64,000 nt of DNA from Candidatus Roseilinea sp. GTDB lineage: Bacteria > Chloroflexota > Anaerolineae > J036 > Brachytrichaceae. Positions 25,323 to 43,620 of this stretch are shown here, piece by piece. Position 1 is the stretch's first letter; each line of letters starts with the position of its first letter. The position numbers were made by a program, and so were the translations under genes. Under the pieces are notes generated by a model. The model did not search any database, was not told the origin of the DNA, and worked only from the letters and a program-made list of their open reading frames with translations. The stretch lies in NCBI GenBank assembly GCA_026003755.1, contig BPHV01000002.1, forward strand, positions 434,001-498,000. Reading direction: 5' to 3'.

Positions 25323-25788
25323 TCACGCGATCGAGTGTGTTGATCTTGTAAGACATCGTTCGCAGTCCGCGATCGCCACCTCTTGGACATGGCGTATGCC
25401 CCTCGGATCGGTATACCTCAGCGGGTTGTTGCGTGTATAGCTGTAGCGATTGAGGGTTTGCGACCGCAGGGAGTCCCCGTGGGACGGGTCGTCCGGCCGC
25501 GGCACGCTGCTGTCCGGCGAGAGGAAGCGCCCGAACAACGGCGAGTAATAGCGCGCGTTGTAATCATAGAGGCCGACACTGGCTTCCAGCCGCTGCCCCG
25601 TGAACCGCCGATCCGTCGGCCACGTGCCGCTAACGTGCCGCGCCGAACCATACGGCGTGTCCCACAGGGAGGCTGCGCACTAGCGGCTCTGCGACACCAC
25701 CCCACCGCTCGCATTCGTCACCAGCGACGCGCTGCCCAGGTGATCCCCGTGCAGCCAATACACCCCGCCGCTGTTGCGCATCGCTCCA
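25323..25788 (-). pseudogene. Displaced RHS core fragment (decayed)
   Basis: Translates as the end of an RHS repeat-associated core: WLHGDHLGSASLVTNASGG, WPTDRRFTGQRLEASVGLYD, YNARYYSPLFGRFLSPDS, YTRNNPLRYTDPRG. It is a diverged copy of 27575-27903 of the adjacent RHS gene. Relative to that copy, the Tyr codon after SQSR is replaced by a 24-nt in-frame segment (about 25663-25686) that begins with a TAG stop. After DPRG only about 20 residues follow before the stop, so almost no toxin tip remains. This is the usual fate of old tips in RHS loci, where cores recombine to bring in new tips. Confidence 0.85.
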
Positions 25789-25829
25789 AGCGTAGTCGAG
25801 AGGAAATTGCTAGAGCACAACCGCCACTC

Positions 25830-26901
25830 CTACCTCTGCTCTGCAGATACGCGTCGGCTACAACGCAAGTCGGCGACAAAGATAGTTCCAGTCCAAATTG
25901 AGGTTTCTCTTAGCGGTTCAAAAAGTAAAAACCGAGTATCACGAGCGATGGCTACCCCGCGTATGCCCGTGTAGGGGCTACCCTGCCCAATCGCATACAC
26001 AGAGGACAAGTCACGATCCACCTCAGCGAACACCACGCGTTCCCCTGTCACCAAGTTGTGCCTCCACACCCGCATTGCCTCCGGGTCTGGATCCAGAATC
26101 ACATCATCAGTCAACCAGGCATCAGGCATAGAGTTCTCCGTAAGCGTCACAATTGCACCACTGCCTAACTCTTGAATGCGCATGGGAAACTGCCGGATTC
26201 CCTTGTCTTTTGTCTCTGCGCTGTAAGCCAAGCGCTTACCATGGGGCGATAAGCTAATCGGGCCAACACCACCCCTCTTCACGCTGTCGATAGTCACCGC
26301 AGCAGTGAACGGCTCTGTCCAACCAACCATGTCTATCTGTAACCAGCCGCGCTTGATTCCGCGCGTCGCAGCTAGAATAGATTCCGTCTCCAACACATCG
26401 AACTCCACACAGTGTGGACAGTCGCGAATCTCCTTCGCTTGCATCGTCTCTAGGTTTATCCACCACAGCTTGCGTTCTTCTGGCTTCTTGTCGTGGTCGT
26501 AAAGGGAGAGATGGTATAGCCCGCGATCATCCGTGCCCCCACTTCACCGCATTGAAAGCGAAGGGAGCAGCTGGCGTACGCCACTCGCCCGTCAACAAGT
26601 TGTAGATACTAAAATGATAATTAATTTCAAGAGATGCAACATACGCAATCCACTGACCGCTTGACGAGATCGCCTTCAGCGTGTTGCCTGCCCACCCCCT
26701 AGGCACACCTCGAACGCATTGTTTCGGGATGAACAGCCCTTGCCATTCTTCTAAAGGCGGCTCGCTTGGTTCCGCCGTGACAGCACGAGTCGGCGCCGGG
26801 GTATAGATGGTCCCACGCTCGTCAATTGGCCTTAACAGACAGCCAGCCAGCACGCTGCTGACCAGCATGCTCAGCAAGACCAGCACCTTTCTTTCGCGCA
26901 T
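25830..26901 (-). CDS. Frameshifted beta-propeller lipoprotein behind the RHS toxin
   Basis: The start is ATG 26901 with GGAGGGG 7 nt upstream. The signal peptide ends in the lipobox VSSVLAGC. The body has TolB/WD40-like blades (SSSGQWIAYVASLEINYHF, SLSPHGKRLAYSAETKD, VWRHNLVTGERVVFAEVD, IARDTRFLLFEPL). The frame breaks at a run of five G (complement at 26536-26540). Removing one G joins KWGTDDRGLYHLSLYDHDKK and gives about 357 residues. It starts 18 nt after the RHS stop, the position of an immunity gene. A lipoprotein immunity would fit a toxin acting outside the cytoplasm, but that function is inferred from position only. Confidence 0.7.
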
Positions 26902-26918
26902 TACGATCCCCTCCTAGC

Positions 26919-29184
26919 CTACTTGATTCGCGGCGGCTTGAACAAGGCATGCATGGCTTCCTGCCACGCAACGCTGTGTAAATCGTCCCGCGCCTGTCTA
27001 TACACTGGCAGCGAATCGTCCCTGTTGAAATGATTTCTCGCTGTCGCTGCATCGGAGGTGAGCGCTTCAAGCATTGCTTGCTCGTAGCTTTCAAGCCTTC
27101 CTCCTAACTCTTGCTTGACCTGATACTGAAAGATATACGCCTCGCGTTCGAACTGCTTGGTGGTGAACTCGCGGTCGCGATGCGCGTGCTCCGGCAGCTC
27201 GTGCGCCACCTCCCGTTGGAAGGCATGGAACAACTCATGCCCTACCAGCGCCACCCAGTTTGCATCTGCCAATCGGTCTCGTTCGTTCGCCGACGGTGGG
27301 ACAATGATCAGGTGGCCGCTCCCCTTGGCCTGCCAGTGCACATCGCCGCCGAAGTGCCCGGATGCCAACGGCAGGCTGATCCCGCCCCGAGCCTGCGGCA
27401 GTATAGCGATCGTCACTTGCTGCATCAGGTCAACCTCCTTGGCGCGTAGCTTGTCGAACATGGCGCGCCCCAGCCGGGTGGATTCCAGCCGGCGTTGCAG
27501 TTGGGCTTTCTGCTCGTTGCTCAGGCAGCTGAGCACCTGGCAGACCTCGTCGGCTTGGTGCCCTGTTGGGTCGGTGTATCTCAGCGGGTTGTTGCGGACG
27601 TAGGCGTAGCGGTTGAAGTCTTGCCGATTAGCGGGGTTGGGCACAATGCTGTCCGGCGAGAGGAAGCGGGCCAACAGCGGCGAGTAGTAGCGCGCGTTGT
27701 AATCATAGAGGCCGACACTGCCTTCCAGCCGCTGCCCGGTAAAGCGCCGGTCGGTTGGCCACGTGCCGCTGACCTGCCGCGCCGAACCATACGGCGTATA
27801 GCGGCTCTGCGACACCACCCCACCGCTCGCATTCGTCACCAGCGAGGCACTGCCCAAGTGATCCCCATGCAGCCAGAACACGCCGCCGCCGTTGCGCATC
27901 GCCACCCTCCATGCGGAGGGCAAGCCCCGCTGCCCGTTGAAATAGTAGTAATTCGTCCAGCCCGTGCTGCTGTTCCACTCCGCATGCGGGCCGACGTAGA
28001 TCGTGGTCTGGCCGTTGTGCGTCTTGCGCACCAGCGCGCCGTCGGCGTCGTAGAAGTAGCGAACGTCCTGCCCGTTGCCATACACCCGCGTCACCTGGTT
28101 GTCCGCGTTCCACTCCTGCGTATACCACGCCCCGTTGTCCCACCGGCTCACCATGTTCCCGTTGGCATCGTAGCTGGCGATCACCCCCCAATCGCAATGC
28201 GTCAGCGCGTGCGGCTTGCCGGGGTGTTGATAGGACAACGCCCCGCCGCACACCCCGGTCTTGAACGTCATCCGCCCGATCGCGTCGTAGCTGTAGCTCT
28301 CGCTGTAGCCCGGCCAGCCCACCTGCGGCACCACGCCCGTCAGCCGATCCAGGTCGTCGTAGCTGTAGGCCAGCCGCTCGCCGGTCGTCCGGTCGCCGCT
28401 GAAGCGAAGGTTGCCTACTGCGTCGTAGGCATACACCAGCTTCAACAGCGCGCCGGCGGCGCTGCTTTCGTCGTCGCAGTTGCCGCTGCTGGTGGCCACG
28501 CACAGCCGGCGCAGCCGCCCGTAGCTGGTGTTGCCGGCGTTCGGGTATTCCAGGTCGCTGCCGTAGTGGTAGCGCTGCGTGCGCGCGCCGTTGCCGTGAT
28601 CCATCCGGGTCAGCAACCCCAGCGCGTTGTAGGTGGCGTTCGAGACATAGACGCTCGCGCCGCTCAGGCTGCGCGGCCGCATGGCGTCGTCGTAGCCGGT
28701 CGTCACCACCTCGCCGTTCGGGTAGATCATGCTCGTCATCCGGTCGGCGCTGTCGTAGGCAAACTGGACGTCGAACGTCCCAGGGACACCGTCCACCGAG
28801 CGGGTCTCTTTCTTCACCCGCCCGCGGGCGTCATATTCCCAGCGCGTCCAGGTGTTGGTGCCCGTCGCGCCGTTGAGCACCTGCGCGATGGTGCGCCGCC
28901 CGACCGGATGCGCGCCGCTCGTCCACCATGTGGCATCGTAGGCGTAGCCGGCGATGTCCACGCCGTTGACCGCCTTCTTGGTCAAACGATTGAGGGCGTC
29001 ATACGTGAACGTTAGCGTCTGGCCCTTGGCATCGGTTTAGTGCGAGTGGCCGTCGCAATACACCAGCGTCTGCGTGCGCAACTGCAGGATGTCGGCGTTC
29101 TCGTGAATGCCGTCGAAGCGGTTCTCCCACGCCACCCGCCCGACGCCCCACCGCGTCCGTTTGTGGGTGTAGCCCCCCGGCATT
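26919..29184 (-). pseudogene. 5'-truncated RHS protein with HExxH toxin tip
   Basis: YD/RHS repeats fill about 27575-29030 (YDARGRVKKE, YDSADRMTSMIYPNGE, YDAVGNLRFSGDRTTGERL, YDANGNMVSRWDNG), ending in the conserved core LYDYNARYYSPLLARFLSP and DPTGH (27557-27574). The variable tip (26919-27556) has HELFH at 27239-27225 inside VALVGHELFHAFQREV, and FEREAYIFQ downstream, so it looks like a zinc-peptidase toxin. The large N-terminal part of a normal RHS protein is missing. The frame runs upstream only to ATG 29184 and is cut by an in-frame TAA at 29039-29037. So it is an orphan cassette, expressed only if recombined into a full-length RHS gene. Confidence 0.85.
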
Positions 29185-37066: not shown

Positions 37067-40000
37067 ATGGGCTTCGTTCACCTGCACGTGCACTCCGAGT
37101 ATTCGCTGCTCGACGGCTTCGGCAACATCAAGAAGCTGGTGCGGCGCGCCAAGGAGCTGGACATGCCGGCGCTCGCGTTGACCGACCACGGCGCGATGTA
37201 CGGCGCCATCGAGTTCTTCGACGTGTGCAGCGAGCTGGGGGTCAAGCCCATCGTCGGCGTCGAGCTCTACCTCTGCAAGCGCGGGCGCCGGATGCAGGAC
37301 AAGGACGTCAACTTCGACCGCAGCCCGCATCACCTGCTCCTGCTGGCGATGAACAACGCGGGCTACAAGAACCTGATGAAGCTGTCGTCGCTGGCGCAAT
37401 TGGAAGGCTACTACTACAAACCCCGCATTGACCACGACGCGCTGGCGCAATACAACCAGGGCCTGATTTGCACCTCCGGCTGCCCATCGGCCGAGATCCC
37501 GCGCTTGATCCAGCAGGGTCAGTTCGAGCAGGCCCGCGCGGTGACGCAGTGGTACCTCGACCTATTCGGCGATCGCTTCTACTTCGAGCTGCAGGATCAC
37601 GATCTACCCGAACTCAAACTGATCAACGAGACGCTCATCGCCTGGTCGAAGGAGATGAGTGTGCCGCTGGTCGCCACCAACGATGTGCACTACGTGCTGC
37701 GCGAGGACGCGCCCTCGCACGACCTGATGCTGTGCATCCAAACCGACGCGCTGCTGAGCGACAAGAATCGGATGCGCTTCAACAATGACTCATACTATCT
37801 GAAAAGCGAAGCGGAGATGGCCGAACTCTTCGGCCAGATCGCGCCCGAAGCGCTGACCAATACGCTCGCAGTCGCCGACCGCTGCGACGTCACCCTGAAG
37901 TCGAAGACTTTCCACTTGCCGCACTTCCAACTGCCGCCGGGCTTTGCGTCGGACGCCGACTACCTGCGTCACCTGTGCTACCGGGGCTTCGAGGAGAAGT
38001 ACGGCATTCCGGCGCAGCCCGCGCCCGACGCTCCGCCGGCCTCTGACGAGCCGGTGGACCTGACGGCGCGTTCGCCACTGGCGCTGCCGGAGTCGCGCGG
38101 CAACCCGGCCCTGCGGCCCAGCGCGCTGCGCCAACGGTCTGGAATATGAACTCAGCGTGATCATCGAGATGGGGTTCGCCACCTACTTCCTGATCGTGTG
38201 GGACCTCATCCGCTTCGCGCGCGAGTCGGGCATCTGGTGGAACGTGCGCGGCAGCGCCGCCGGCAGCATGGTGTCCTATGTGCTCGGCTTGAGCTACCTG
38301 GAGCCGGTCAGCAACGATCTGCTGTTCGAGCGCTTCCTCAACCCCGGGCGCGTGTCCATGCCGGACATTGACATGGACTTCCCTGACGACCAGCGCGGCC
38401 TGTTGGTGGACTACACCATCGCCAAATACGGGCGCGAGAACGTGGCGCAGATCATCACCTTCGGCACCATGGCTGCGCGCGCCGCGCTCAAAGATGTGGG
38501 GCGCGTGCTCGACATCCCGCTGAACGAAGTATCGCGCATCACGTCGCTCGTGCCGGCCATCCCCGGCAAGCCCATCACGCTGACGCAGGCGCTGGAGCAG
38601 GTGCCCGAGCTCAAGCGGCTCTACGAGACCGAATCACACGTGCGCGAGCTATACGACCGCGCCATCAAGGTCGAGGGCACGGTGCGCAACGCCGGCACCC
38701 ACGCCGCCGGCGTGGTGATCGCCGACCGCCCGCTGATCGAGTATGCGCCGCTGAACAAGCTGACCGGCACACCGCTCACCCCGCAGCTCAACGCCGTCAC
38801 CCAGTTCGAGATGACCCACCTGGAGGCCATCGGGCTGCTGAAGATGGACTACCTGGGGCTGTCCACGCTCACCATCATGCGCAAGGCGTGTGAGCTGATC
38901 GAGCAACGGCACGGCGTCCGGCTCAACCTGACCAACATCCCGATCCACGACCGGCGCATCTACGAGCTGTTGTCGCGGGGCGACGTGCAGGGGGTGTTCC
39001 AGGTGGAAGGCACCGGCATGCGCAATCTGATGATGCAGATGAAGCCGACGCGCTTCCAGCACGTGGTGGCGGCGCTGGCGCTCTTCCGGCCCGGGCCGAT
39101 GGAGTACATCCCCACCTATATCCGCCGCATGCACGGCGAGGAACAAGTGGAATACCGCCACCCCGACCTGGCGCCGGCGTTAGGCGAGACCTACGGCATC
39201 TGCATCACCGGCGATGCGGTGTTGTTCGACCCCATCACCGGCCGGCGCTGCCGCATGGATGAAGCGCAGCATGTCCCCGATCTTCATCTGCAGAGCGTCG
39301 CGGAGGATCTTTCGCCGGCCGTCGGCCGCGTCGTTCACTGGGTACACAACGGGAAGAAACCGGTGTATCGAGTAACGCTGCGCAACGGCGCCAGCATCAA
39401 AATGACGTCCGATCATCGTGTGCTGACCGAGGATGGTTGGATGCCGCTGAGCGCGCTCAAGCCTGGCGACTTCATCGCCACGCCGCGACAGTTACTGGGG
39501 CCGAGCCGCGATTACGATCGAGACCGTCTGCGTGTGCTGGCTTACTTGATCGCCGACGGCGATTTGGGCAATCTCGCCGCCGTGAACTTCGTCTCTAAGG
39601 ACCCGGCCTTGCTCGACGAGTATCGGCGCTGCTTGCGCGCGTTCCCGGATGTGCGCGAGACGAAAGTGCAGCAAGCGCGTCAGGTTTGGCGAATCGGCGC
39701 CGCTAAAGCGCAGGCATCGGCATATCACGAACCCAATGCTGTGTTAGCCTGGTTGCGCGAACTCGGGCTCAAACATATGCCAGGCGCCGAAAGGGGGGGA
39801 TGCCGGAGCGATGAAAAGTTCGTGCCAAACTTCGTATTCGGTTTAAGCCAAGAGGCGATCGCGTTCTTCCTCGCTTCGTTGTGGGATTGTGATGGCTACG
39901 TTGGGCGTAAGCTATGCCACTATCGCACAATCTCCGCTCAGCTTGCCCATGACATCCAAACACTTCTGCTTCGCCTGGGCATTCGCTCGGTCATTTACAC

Positions 40001-42314
40001 CAACGCCTACCATGCCCCTAGCCGAGGCGCGCGACTCGCTTACCAAGTGACGGTCTATGAGACTACAGCATTAATGGAATGGCTCGCGCCGTTCATGCTC
40101 ACCCAGAAGCGAGCAGTTGCTTGCAAGAGTCGCGACGGACACACGATTCGCCGTGCCGACTTCATCGCCAAGGTCAATGCGGCGCTGTCTATCTCGCGCA
40201 AAGCCATACAGCGCAACTTTGGCTTGAGCGCCCAACACTTCTACCCCCGTGCGCTTCAGCGTCCGCGCATCAGCGCATACGTTGTCGAGCCGCTGGCGCA
40301 AGCAGCACCCCTCCCTGAAACCCTCAAGCGATTGAGCGTGATCTGGGAAGAGATCGTCAAGATCGAGCCGGCCGGGATAGAGGACGTTTACGACCTAACC
40401 GTTGAGGGCTTCCACAATTTTGTCGCCAACAACATCATCGTCCACAATTGCGTATACCAAGAGCAGATCATGCGCCTGGCGCGCGACATCGCCGGCTACT
40501 CGGTGGGCGAGGCCGACACCATTCGCAAAGCCGTCGCCAAGAAGAACGCCGAACAACTGCTGAAGCACAAGACCAAGTTCCGCGAGGGCGCTGTCAAGAA
40601 GGGCTACAGCGCCGAACTGGCCGACGCCATCTTCGGCGACATCGAGTACTTCGCCCGTTACGGCTTCCCCAAGGCGCACGCCGCCGACTACGCGGCCATC
40701 ACCTGTCAGACGGCCTGGCTCAAGGCCTGCTATCCGCTCGAATACATCTGCGCGCTGCTCACCTGCGAGAGCGGCAACACCGAGAAGATCACCGCCCTGA
40801 TCGCCGACGCCAAGTTGCACGGCATCAAAATCCTGCCGCCCAGCGTGAACGCCAGCGACGCCGATTTCACCATCGAGACGCCGCCGAACTTCAAATCCAA
40901 AGACAGCATCGGCGCGATCCGCTTCGGGTTGATGGCGATCAAGGGCGTGGGCGAAGGGCCGGTGCGCGCCATCGTCGAGGCACGCAAGCAGGGGGGGCGA
41001 TTCAAGTCGCTCGACGACTTCTGCCGGCGCGTGGACATGACGGCGCTGAACAAGCGTGCCCTCGAATCGCTGATCAAGGCCGGCGCGTTCGACGACTTCG
41101 GCTCGCGCGCCACAATTGCTGGCCGTCGTGGATCAGATGATCGGCGCGGCCGCGACCGCGCGCCGCGCCGCCGAGCGCGGCCAGGGCATGTTGTTCGGCG
41201 GGCTGGACGGCGCCGGCGATGAGACCCTGATCGTCCTGCCCAAGCACGTCCGCGAGATCCCGCCCAAGCAACTGCTGCAAGACGAGAAGGAGCTGCTCGG
41301 CACCTACGTCTCCGCGCACCCGCTCCAAGCGCAACTCGACGCGCTTCAGCAGCAGATCACGCACACCAGCGCCTCGTTGACTGAAGGCGACAACGGGCAG
41401 AGGGTGGTCGTGGCCGGCGTAGTCAGCTCCATCCGCCCACACACCACCAAGGCCGGCAAGCCGATGGCCTTCGGCGAGCTGGAGGACATGTACGGCCGGC
41501 TGGAGCTGACGATCTTCCCAAAGACCTGGGAGAAATATCCAGGACAAGTTCCAGCAAAGATAAGGCGCTGCTGGTGTGGGGCAAGGCCGAAGTGCAGCCG
41601 GGCGGCACACCGAAGATCCTGGTCGAGAAGGTCAGCGATTCATTCGAGATCGCCCGCAGCGCCGACGACGCCCCTGCCGCCTATAGCGACATCTCCAAAC
41701 CCAATCATGCCGTCGCCGAGGAAGTGATCGACGCCTACTTCGACTCGCCGCAGGCCAAGCCGACGCACGCGCCACCGCCATCTTCAACCGATGCGGCTAG
41801 CCGCGCCGAATTGCACACCGACGACCTGGCCGCCCTGGACGAGATCAACTTCACCGATGACGACATCCTTACCTCCGATCCCTCCCTATCCAGGGGCGAA
41901 GCGAATGCAATTACCGATGATCTGACCGTCACATTGCGCCATGGAGCAAACGCGGCAGCGCCGTCGCTCGACGCATCGAATGACGATGGGCAACCTGCAC
42001 TTGCCGCCGAGGGCGAGCCGGCGGCCGTTGAGAACCCGCACCCCAACGCGCAGGACCTGCCCCCCATTTTCGCTGCCCGCGAGCCGCTGCGCATCGTCAT
42101 GCACCGCAACGGCGACCCGCGCAGCGACGTAGCCAAGCTGGAAGCCGTACTGCAGACGCTGCGCAAATATCCGGGCGACCAGCCGTTTACCCTGACGCTG
42201 CAGCAGGCGAACGGCAAGGCCGTGACGCTCGACTTCCCGAACGACGCCACGCGCGACTGCCCGGAACTGCGCCGGGAACTGACCGCGCTGCTCGGCGCGC
42301 AGTGCATCGCGTGA
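37067..42314 (+). CDS. dnaE: DNA polymerase III alpha subunit with an intein and frame breaks
   Basis: Replicative polymerase, about 1,330 residues after intein removal. The PHP domain starts HVHSEYSLLDG and includes ALTDHGAMYGAIEFF. The palm has catalytic Asp residues in MPDIDMDFPDDQRG. The fingers include GVFQVEGTGMRNLM and RPGPMEYIPTYI. A C-terminal OB fold begins VVVAGVVSSIRPHTTKAGKP. The frame breaks three times. At 38136-38138 one extra base (dropping T38138 gives RQRLEYELSV). At about 41111 there is one extra A (GSRAQLLAVV). At 41538-41558 there is either one lost A or two extra bases (leading into DKALLVWGKAEV). All exons are otherwise conserved, so assembly error or a second copy elsewhere must be considered. 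The stop overlaps mobA. Confidence 0.93.
39201..40448 (+). mobile_element. DnaE intein with LAGLIDADG endonuclease domain
   Basis: A 416-residue in-frame insertion between ...GETYGI and CVYQEQIM of the polymerase, an invariant motif of the alpha subunit. It begins with Cys (CITGDAVLFDP, block A). Block B is TSDHRVLTEDGWMPL. The homing endonuclease region has two LAGLIDADG motifs: LAYLIADGDLG and LASLWDCDGYVG. It ends with VYDLTVEGFHNFVANN then IIVHN, and the next extein residue is Cys. All splicing residues (Cys1, block B His, C-terminal His-Asn, Cys+1) are present, so self-splicing is expected. Both catalytic Asp residues of the endonuclease are retained. Confidence 0.95.
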
Positions 42315-42925
42315 CGGACGAACGCCAGCCCAGCCTGACGGTCGCCATCCTATGCGGCGGGCAATCCCGCCGGATGGGTCAGGACAAAGGGCTGATGCCT
42401 TTCCTAGGTCGGCCGCTCGTTCAGCGTGTGGTCGAGCGCGTGCAGCCGCTCTCGGGCGAGATTGTCCTCGTCACCAATCGCCCCGACGACTACCGCTTCC
42501 TCGGCTTATCCATGCTGCCGGATGCGTTGCCCGGCCGTGGACCACTGGGCGGTGCGTTCACTGCGGTGATGGCGTGCCGATCTACTGCGCTGGCGCTGGT
42601 GGCCTGCGACATGCCGTTCGTCAACGCGGCTGTGCTCGCCCGCGCCTACCAGGTGTTAGCGGCGGAAGGCTGCGACGCCGTGGTGCCCTTGACGGCTAAC
42701 GGGCCGGAGGCGCTGCACGCCGTCTATCGGGCGGCGACCTGCGCGCCGGTGATGAAAGCCGCGCTCGATGCCGGAGAGCTGAAGATGGCCGATTGGTTAC
42801 CGCGCGTGCGCGCGCGCTTCATCACACAAGAGGAGATCATCCGCTTAGACCCGGAGGGGCTTGCCTTCGTCAACGTCAACACCCTGGAGGCGTTCCGCGC
42901 TGCCGAGCAGCGCGCAAGGGAGTAG
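42311..42925 (+). CDS. mobA: Molybdenum cofactor guanylyltransferase
   Basis: 204 residues. The nucleotidyltransferase loop is ILCGGQSRRMGQDKGLMPF, followed by LPGRGPLGGAF and the metal-binding LVACDMPFV. MobA attaches GMP to molybdopterin to give the bis-MGD cofactor. GTG 42311 overlaps the dnaE stop (GTGA), suggesting coupled translation; an in-frame GTG at 42302 is possible. Confidence 0.9.
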   Translation: MTDERQPSLTVAILCGGQSRRMGQDKGLMPFLGRPLVQRVVERVQPLSGEIVLVTNRPDDYRFLGLSMLPDALPGRGPLGGAFTAVMACRSTALALVACDMPFVNAAVLARAYQVLAAEGCDAVVPLTANGPEALHAVYRAATCAPVMKAALDAGELKMADWLPRVRARFITQEEIIRLDPEGLAFVNVNTLEAFRAAEQRARE

Positions 42926-42936
42926 CGGCGAGCACA

Positions 42937-43161
42937 TTATTCGGACGCCGCCGGCGCGTCGTCGTTTGCCTCCCAGCCGATGATCCATACGCATAGGCCG
43001 GCCAACCCAATCGTGGCCAGGATCAAGAACAGCCACTGGTTCCACAGCAGGCCGACGTCGCGCGCGGCGATGATGAGGATGATGACCATGCCGGCGGCCA
43101 GCGCAATCCACGCCGCCAGCCGAGGATGCTTCTCGGCGAACGCTCTCAGTCTCGTCAGCAT
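42937..43161 (-). CDS. Small two-helix membrane protein
   Basis: 74 residues. Two hydrophobic segments (WIALAAGMVIILIIAA and WLFLILATIGLAGLCVWII) separated by a short loop, with a positively charged N-terminus and an acidic C-terminus. Not assigned to a family. TAGAAT (reverse of 43168-43173) ends 6 nt upstream of the ATG, which supports it as a real, leaderless gene. Confidence 0.65.
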   Translation of the reverse strand: MLTRLRAFAEKHPRLAAWIALAAGMVIILIIAARDVGLLWNQWLFLILATIGLAGLCVWIIGWEANDDAPAASE

Positions 43162-43620
43162 GCACCGATTCTAATTCGGCTCACGGCACCAGCCGGCTGC
43201 GCGGACGTTTCCTCGGCGGCGATGGCGCGTCTTCTCAGCCATCGCTTTGCTTACGTCGTCGGACCGGCGCACGGCGTAGATGTTCCACTCAGTTTTGGAT
43301 TCCTGCCCGCGCAGAAGGGGACGTTCGATGTCATCGGACTGACGAACCGGCGCACAAACAGCACGAGTTCAAACGCCGGCGGCCAGCGCACGAACATTCG
43401 TCGGCCAAATACACGTTTGAGGCCGAGCGCCACCAACCGGCCGGCTTCGACCGCCCCCGTCCATGCGTCCATGTGAAGTGTTATCCTTGACCTGCAACAT
43501 GGCGCAGCGCCGAGTTGAAAATAGTCAAACTGACGGCTACGATTGTGCAGAGACGACTCGCGCGCTCACGAGATGCCTCAAAGATCGTCGCGTCGTCGGG
43601 GCCGCACTCGAGCATGCAAT
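43162..43620. other. 459-bp stretch without a supported gene
   Basis: Only short open frames are present; the longest is a 73-codon minus-strand frame at 43251-43472 with no recognisable features. The right part should hold the promoter of the CYTH-CHAD gene, but no clear -10 box is visible. TAGAAT at 43168-43173 (minus) belongs to the small membrane protein. Confidence 0.5.
43168..43173 (-). promoter_or_regulatory. Candidate -10 box of the small membrane protein gene
   Basis: TAGAAT on the minus strand, 6 nt upstream of the ATG at 43161. Confidence 0.4.

Follow-up and report, generated by a model that had tools for sequence, protein, structure and literature searches.

The dnaE gene and its intein

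We analysed a stretch of 64,000 nucleotides from Candidatus Roseilinea sp. (assembly GCA_026003755.1, contig BPHV01000002.1, positions 434,001 to 498,000; hereafter the window), a member of the Chloroflexota according to a taxonomy look-up, in which dnaE, the gene for the alpha subunit of DNA polymerase III, carries an intein. The source genome, coded G000, comprises 3.34 Mb in five contigs and holds a single dnaE, as found by a search with PF07733. On the basis of open frames and of Pfam and NCBIfam matches, the gene was placed on the forward strand at 37067..42314, with a PHP part (37067-38149), a polymerase part that includes the intein (38157-41222) and, from open frames, C-terminal parts at 41116-41727 and 41574-42314, the last of which has no family match and was assigned through its continuity with relatives. 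In the window copy, one-base breaks interrupt the frame near 38.14, 41.11 and 41.54-41.56 kb, all outside the intein. These breaks are absent in 6 of the 6 members of the genus covered by the comparison, and the frame is open over 1768 amino acids in the genome G007 and over 1818 in G002. Because the stretch is otherwise nearly identical to that of G007, sequence error is probably the likelier cause of the breaks.

The polymerase and finger part that forms the N-extein (38157..39200, forward strand) was delimited by Pfam and by same-site comparison and ends in the residues ETYGI. In the alignment with DNA polymerase III alpha, its final residue corresponds to position 740 of the Taq chain (2hpi_A) and position 683 of the E. 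coli chain (2hnh_A). Pfam recognises the finger domain PF17657 in two stretches, one on each side of the intein. The intein itself (39201..40448, forward strand) translates to 416 open residues that begin with C1 and end with H415-N416, followed by C+1 at 40449. It matches Pfam Intein_splicing (PF14890, E value 4e-23) and LAGLIDADG_3 (E value 7.7e-15), and both NCBIfam intein_Nterm and intein_Cterm exceed their cut-offs.

Next we aligned 13 inteins that occupy this site. The residues C1, T69, H72, D119, D231, H415 and N416 are invariant in all of them, and each of the 13 carriers has Cys at +1. In the window, the N-terminal splicing nucleophile Cys1 lies at 39201..39203, block B (T69..H72) at 39405..39416, the first LAGLIDADG motif (VLAYLIADG, with Asp119 and the likewise invariant G120) at 39534..39560, the second (LASLWDCDG, with Asp231 and the invariant G232) at 39870..39896, the C-terminal His-Asn at 40443..40448 and the Cys+1 of the C-extein at 40449..40451, all on the forward strand. 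A preliminary description of this locus, made from the sequence alone, had reported a complete 416-residue intein with its splicing residues present and with both LAGLIDADG motifs retaining their Asp; the translation, the family matches, the alignment and the structural model described below bear this out in full.

The AlphaFold2 model, built on the 13-member alignment, has a mean predicted local distance difference test score (pLDDT) of 90.9 and a predicted template modelling score of 0.90. In a fold search it was matched over its whole length by TliVMA (7qss; Z 32.7, root-mean-square deviation 3.4, 374 aligned residues) and by PI-PkoII (2cw7; Z 32.4, deviation 2.9, 345 aligned). These two inteins and PI-SceI (1vde) have the same two-part fold as the DnaE intein, which shares with LAGLIDADG homing endonuclease inteins both motifs, Cys1 and the C-terminal Asn; they differ, however, in host protein and site, and are only 15-22% identical to it in structural alignments. 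For the splicing domain, the nearest relatives in sequence and structure are the DnaB and RecA inteins (Ssp DnaB 1mi8, Npu DnaB 4o1r, Mtu RecA 2imz): the splicing part of the model aligns with 1mi8 over 136 residues (Z 23.4, deviation 1.3, 40% identity), and the intein matches NCBIfam PRK07773 with an E value of 3e-57. Their solved chains, in contrast, come from other host genes, have 139-169 residues and lack an endonuclease.

The cyanobacterial split DnaE intein (Ssp and Npu DnaE) shares the host gene and the HINT fold (Npu DnaE 4kl5, Z 19.5). It is split and sits at another point, which we take to be FAEY/CFNKSH, whereas the intein described here is encoded by one open frame at YGI/C and is therefore unlike the two-gene arrangement, and it carries an endonuclease. 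In the literature searched we found no list of DnaE insertion points against which the YGI/C point could be matched, nor any paper pairing an intein with Roseilinea.

We then compared the window with the genome G004. The ratio of nonsynonymous to synonymous substitution rates is 0.097 for the endonuclease part, 0.073 for HINT-N, 0.059 for HINT-C and 0.057-0.059 for the exteins. Judged from these sequences, purifying selection on the endonuclease domain is almost as strong as on the splicing part. Collectively, 39201-40448 is a complete class 1 intein with a HINT domain and an intact-looking two-motif LAGLIDADG endonuclease, for which splicing and cleavage are predicted. The available part of the report on TliVMA (PMC8966425) describes cleavage of a reconstituted homing site in vitro, so that the fold class holds enzymes with proven activity, and by analogy we infer endonuclease activity for the DnaE intein.

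Distribution of the intein and the residue at +1

A patchy distribution is the usual ground for inferring that bacterial inteins move. We searched for the intein in 60 genomes, the window genome included, and found it at the same DnaE site in seven: four of the nine genomes of the genus (G000, G002, G004 and G007) and, in a second genus of the same family (g2), three of the four genomes sampled (G009, G021 and G025). For the five other members of the genus (G001, G003, G005, G006 and G008), a query made of the joined flanks found contiguous DnaE across the insertion point. The preliminary description had proposed looking for intein-free relatives and had named alignment error as a possible source of the insertion; such relatives exist, and their contiguous DnaE DNA rules that error out.

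Conditional splicing of DnaE in response to heat, redox state or metals, retained by the host as a regulatory switch, would have a published counterpart in the mycobacterial DnaB intein, as given in the available portion of PMC7360933. The patchy presence of the DnaE intein and the intein-free close relatives speak against a needed function, and we regard such a switch as quite improbable.

Among named relatives, the nearest inteins are that of Candidatus Roseilinea sp. NK_OTU-006, with 99% identity, and that of a Thermoflexales metagenome-assembled genome (MAG), with 87%. In the genome collection as a whole there are ten loci with relatives of the intein. Nine are full length, G002 and G004 among them, with 45-99% identity, and all nine adjoin DnaE at the same residue; the tenth is partial and 37% identical. 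Other Chloroflexota, Bacteroidota MAGs and one MAG labelled Gammaproteobacteria carry inteins with 45-60% identity at this point of DnaE, and the full-length relatives include the latter two groups. The preliminary description had called the element young; this applies to its presence in the genomes compared here, and the allele itself, given the identity of its distant carriers, is older.

In the MAG labelled Gammaproteobacteria, the intein shares 55-60% identity with the copies of Chloroflexota (52% with L070) and the exteins share 44-48%. Because the identity of the intein exceeds that of the exteins, these sequences suggest a transfer of the intein between phyla; support for the position of this MAG in the intein tree is weak (46), and a binning error is a possible alternative. 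At the scale of the phylum, 4 of 400 genomes have a match at E<=1e-60, with only the window genome and G004 scoring above 700 bits and G074 and G137 at about 207 bits.

Phages were considered as a vector and set aside, as we saw no close full-length copy among 50,697 phage records, 41 of which match the intein. The best 15 of these 41 are 19.8-26.7% identical and lie in terminase, RecA, helicase and similar genes, while two of the other 26 hold pieces at 60-80% identity that, given how the matches are ranked, can account for just a small share of the query. Among viral contigs, the single matching locus aligns over just 33 residues.

Next we examined the residue at +1. Class 1 splicing requires Cys, Ser or Thr at this position. 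The five empty alleles of the genus read YGI-V or YGI-I, so that Cys+1, as a scar of intein loss, is present in none of them, and the Cys+1 of the window was apparently imported with the intein; in the wider family, the empty allele of G016 has Leu and that of G015 has Ile. We also searched 150 genomes of the class with a pattern that required exact YGI and YQEQ and allowed any codon at +1. This matched 68 contiguous sites, with 50 Ile, 6 Leu, 4 Met, 4 Pro, 1 Phe and 3 Cys; since the pattern was exact, the remaining 82 genomes are uninformative. The YGI/CVYQEQ motif, which had been described as invariant, therefore varies at +1, where 65 of the 68 sites have Ile, Leu, Met, Pro or Phe. The contiguous Cys+1 pattern was absent from the 400 genomes of the phylum, a draw that differs from the class set. 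The three intein-free Cys+1 alleles, L106 (G052), L107 (G446) and L108 (G499), cluster loosely with the intein carrier L067 (bootstrap 78), and on these sequences either scars of intein loss or a lineage with a native Cys fits.

With Cys, Ser or Thr needed at +1, an intein that invades an allele with none of these residues there must overwrite the +1 codon. A comparable case is that of the haloarchaeal MCM inteins, for which the available part of PMC10643990 describes that homing must co-convert proline to serine at +1, that such invasions are few and that some alleles have a non-nucleophile at +1 and are treated as resistant to invasion; at the DnaE site, by comparison, 65 of the 68 class sites lack Cys, Ser and Thr.

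These data also bear on vertical inheritance, in which the intein was present in the ancestor of the genus and was lost in five species. The copy of G004 is divergent (82.5% DNA identity), hence the genus has carried the intein for some time, and its presence in three of the four g2 genomes is likewise consistent with such descent. However, none of the five intein-free alleles of the genus retains a Cys at +1, where they read Val or Ile, and the inteins of the window, G002 and G007 resemble one another much more closely than do the backgrounds compared, so that we consider purely vertical descent extremely improbable.

DNA shared with two related genomes

We next compared the DNA around the intein between the window and the other carriers of the genus. 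With G002, the window shares a tract at 38925..40828, delimited by DNA comparison and a segment scan, that has 10 mismatches in 1904 bp and consists of the intein plus 276 bp on its left and 380 bp on its right. Seven of the ten mismatches are inside the intein, of which three are synonymous and four nonsynonymous. In bins of 300 bp, the identity is 99.0-99.7% around the intein, falling to 86-94% in the bins of dnaE on its left and to 92-97% immediately on its right; the background is 96.0% identical over 10.9 kb. For extein DNA, 3 of 656 positions are mismatched inside the tract and 199 of 2522 (7.9%) outside it (one-sided Fisher test, p value = 2.9e-17). As the tract borders were picked from the data, a maximal-segment shuffle test was added, in which 0 of 1000 shuffles reached the observed tract. 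The tract test for the window against G006, G003, G001 and G004 found no dip (p values of 0.78, 0.59, 0.11 and 0.14), and across ten pairs besides window and G002 the lowest p value was 0.038 (G002 and G001), with the others between 0.073 and 0.94.

Trees of the same region place G002 differently inside and outside the tract. Outside, G002 groups with the intein-free G006 and G003 (bootstrap 99), whereas the tract flanks of G002 fall with those of the window and G007 (bootstrap 94), and for this reason G002 looks like the recipient. The simplest reading of these sequences is that a window-like allele was copied into an ancestor of G002, where roughly 276 bp to the left and 380 bp to the right were replaced; accordingly, we read this segment as a co-conversion tract, the trace expected of homing.

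With G007, the window shares a larger block at 37082..43231, delimited in the same way, which spans about 6 kb and also contains the next gene, mobA-like. There are zero mismatches from 37328 to 40930, including 0 of 1248 in the intein, and the surroundings of the block are mostly 73-90% identical. The background identity between the two genomes is 83.5% over 10.5 kb downstream, and the nearest relative of G007 among the genomes compared for background is G001 (89.6%). The sequences thus show that the intein-bearing allele recently moved a second time, over a stretch that exceeds a minimal homing tract. The mobA-like gene and the C-terminal part of dnaE in the block are 92.2% and 88.4% identical to G002, as opposed to 83.9% and 76.2% to G001, and this closeness to G002 favours G007 as the recipient. 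Counting against this direction, the mobA tree joins G002 with G001 (94), and the window dnaE is 91.9% identical to G002 against a background of 96.0%; as it is farther from G002 than the background, the window dnaE may itself have been imported.

The zero mismatches over 3.6 kb, and the one-base breaks of the window dnaE that are missing from six of six covered relatives and resemble a poorly polished region, could also point to assembly chimerism or to cross-contamination between MAGs as the origin of the shared dnaE block. A chimera of this kind is nonetheless improbable: the G002 tract is not identical but has its 10 differences, the frame is open in G002 as well as in G007, which is a single-contig genome, and the left flank of the G007 block is syntenic.

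The following results weigh against homing as the explanation of the shared DNA. In a scan for near-identical segments that covered 25-64 kb of the window, only two long ones were shared with G002, the intein tract and a higher-scoring segment at 25776-27624 in an RHS-repeat locus; G007 also shares two segments at this locus besides the dnaE block. Recombination without the dnaE intein therefore also happens here, and as a consequence mobility driven by the endonuclease is inferred from the position and size of the tract, the intact catalytic residues and selection. The dnaE outside the G002 tract is less identical to G002 than the background is, which, together with the mobA tree, indicates that the region underwent more recombination than one event. 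Finally, a shared sample or a mis-assembly could possibly underlie the 100% identity of the G007 block. The two intein-free genomes scanned, G006 and G003, share no segment above 108 bp with the window over 25-64 kb.

The RHS-repeat locus is of note in its own right. Over 25776-29012, with an RHS-repeat frame at 26919-28985, it is near-identical to both G002 and G007 amid divergent surroundings, pointing to another recent exchange.

Such exchanges raise the alternative that the intein is a passive passenger, moved between species by ordinary homologous recombination of dnaE with no need for an endonuclease. The segments at the RHS-repeat locus, exchanged without the dnaE intein in the same window, speak for this, and so does the G007 block, which is larger than the G002 tract and takes in a neighbouring gene. 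The G002 tract, in contrast, hugs the intein, both catalytic Asp are invariant in the 13 inteins and the endonuclease is under purifying selection near the level of the splicing part, so that a passenger role is unlikely, if less so than the other alternatives.

We conclude that the sequence between YGI and YQEQ of the DnaE finger domain is very probably a class 1 intein whose LAGLIDADG homing endonuclease looks intact and that spread by homing with co-conversion. This agrees with the preliminary description of a young and probably mobile element in an essential gene, for which the G002 tract, the identical intein of G007 on a background of 83.5%, the empty sites and the purifying selection all argue. 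From what is known of the family, Cys1, the block B His, the His-Asn and Cys+1 would excise the intein after translation and ligate the halves of DnaE. The endonuclease would cut intein-free dnaE DNA, and repair templated by an intein-bearing copy would insert the intein plus flanking DNA. Because the intein-free alleles here, with few exceptions, are without Cys+1, the homing unit would generally need to include the +1 codon and so alter one residue of the replicative polymerase.

Further inteins and implications for the DnaE site

Several relatives hold further inteins. A second DnaE intein, 63 residues upstream in host numbering, is found at L055:8174-9331 (G009), L056:5648-6805 (G025) and L068:3187-4305. 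Its nuclease does not resemble LAGLIDADG: it has four conserved Cys and a motif similar to NUMOD3, and its core, with PD...E.K residues, is Phage_endo_I/TnsA-like; the corresponding Pfam scores stay under the curated cut-offs. The model of this intein (mean pLDDT 48.7) is usable over the nuclease part only, as block means reach 61-88 only at residues ~240-330. The upstream and the YGI-site inteins occur as a pair both in a genus of Chloroflexota and in a MAG labelled Gammaproteobacteria.

In L068:1-7200, one DnaE has three inteins (443, 373 and 422 amino acids) at GRG/SAAGS, FES/SGM and YGI/CVYQEQ. L069:5995-7275 is a further DnaE intein at GFNK/SHAADY, presumably near the cyanobacterial split-intein point; the split site itself was rejected for this intein, which sits at GFNK/SH. 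The DnaE inteins of G035 (L059) and G030 (L060) are in the same neighbourhood, near FARYGFPKAH. Outside dnaE, the window genome has an intein in a putative ribonucleotide reductase, so named from a reading of the sequence (L109:1953-6710, minus strand, contig C3 at ~177 kb, a 1586-amino-acid frame), and L063:1001-4282 (G021, contig C427) is an open frame of 1375 amino acids with two intein-like matches.

Taken together, the intein is ordinary in kind and the general picture of inteins is unchanged; what is above the ordinary is the legibility of the event, for which the evidence is unusually direct, and the overwriting of +1. In an essential gene for replication, and in a lineage that is uncultured, a single recent event has apparently been recorded as a co-conversion tract that can still be read and whose recipient flanks can be identified. 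The intein family would supply a DnaE intein with a rare-cutting endonuclease, and the YGI/C site is a clean test of intein invasion where the neighbouring codon must be rewritten for splicing. More tentatively, the YGI-site intein could be an obligate co-converter, for which almost all natural targets, lacking Cys, Ser or Thr at +1, are incompetent for splicing and the mobile unit is the intein plus the +1 Cys codon, making invasion a permanent edit of the polymerase; we hold this as a possibility, albeit a doubtful one. If it were true, the intein-free Cys+1 DnaEs (3 of 68, in one loosely supported clade with L067) would be scars of intein loss.

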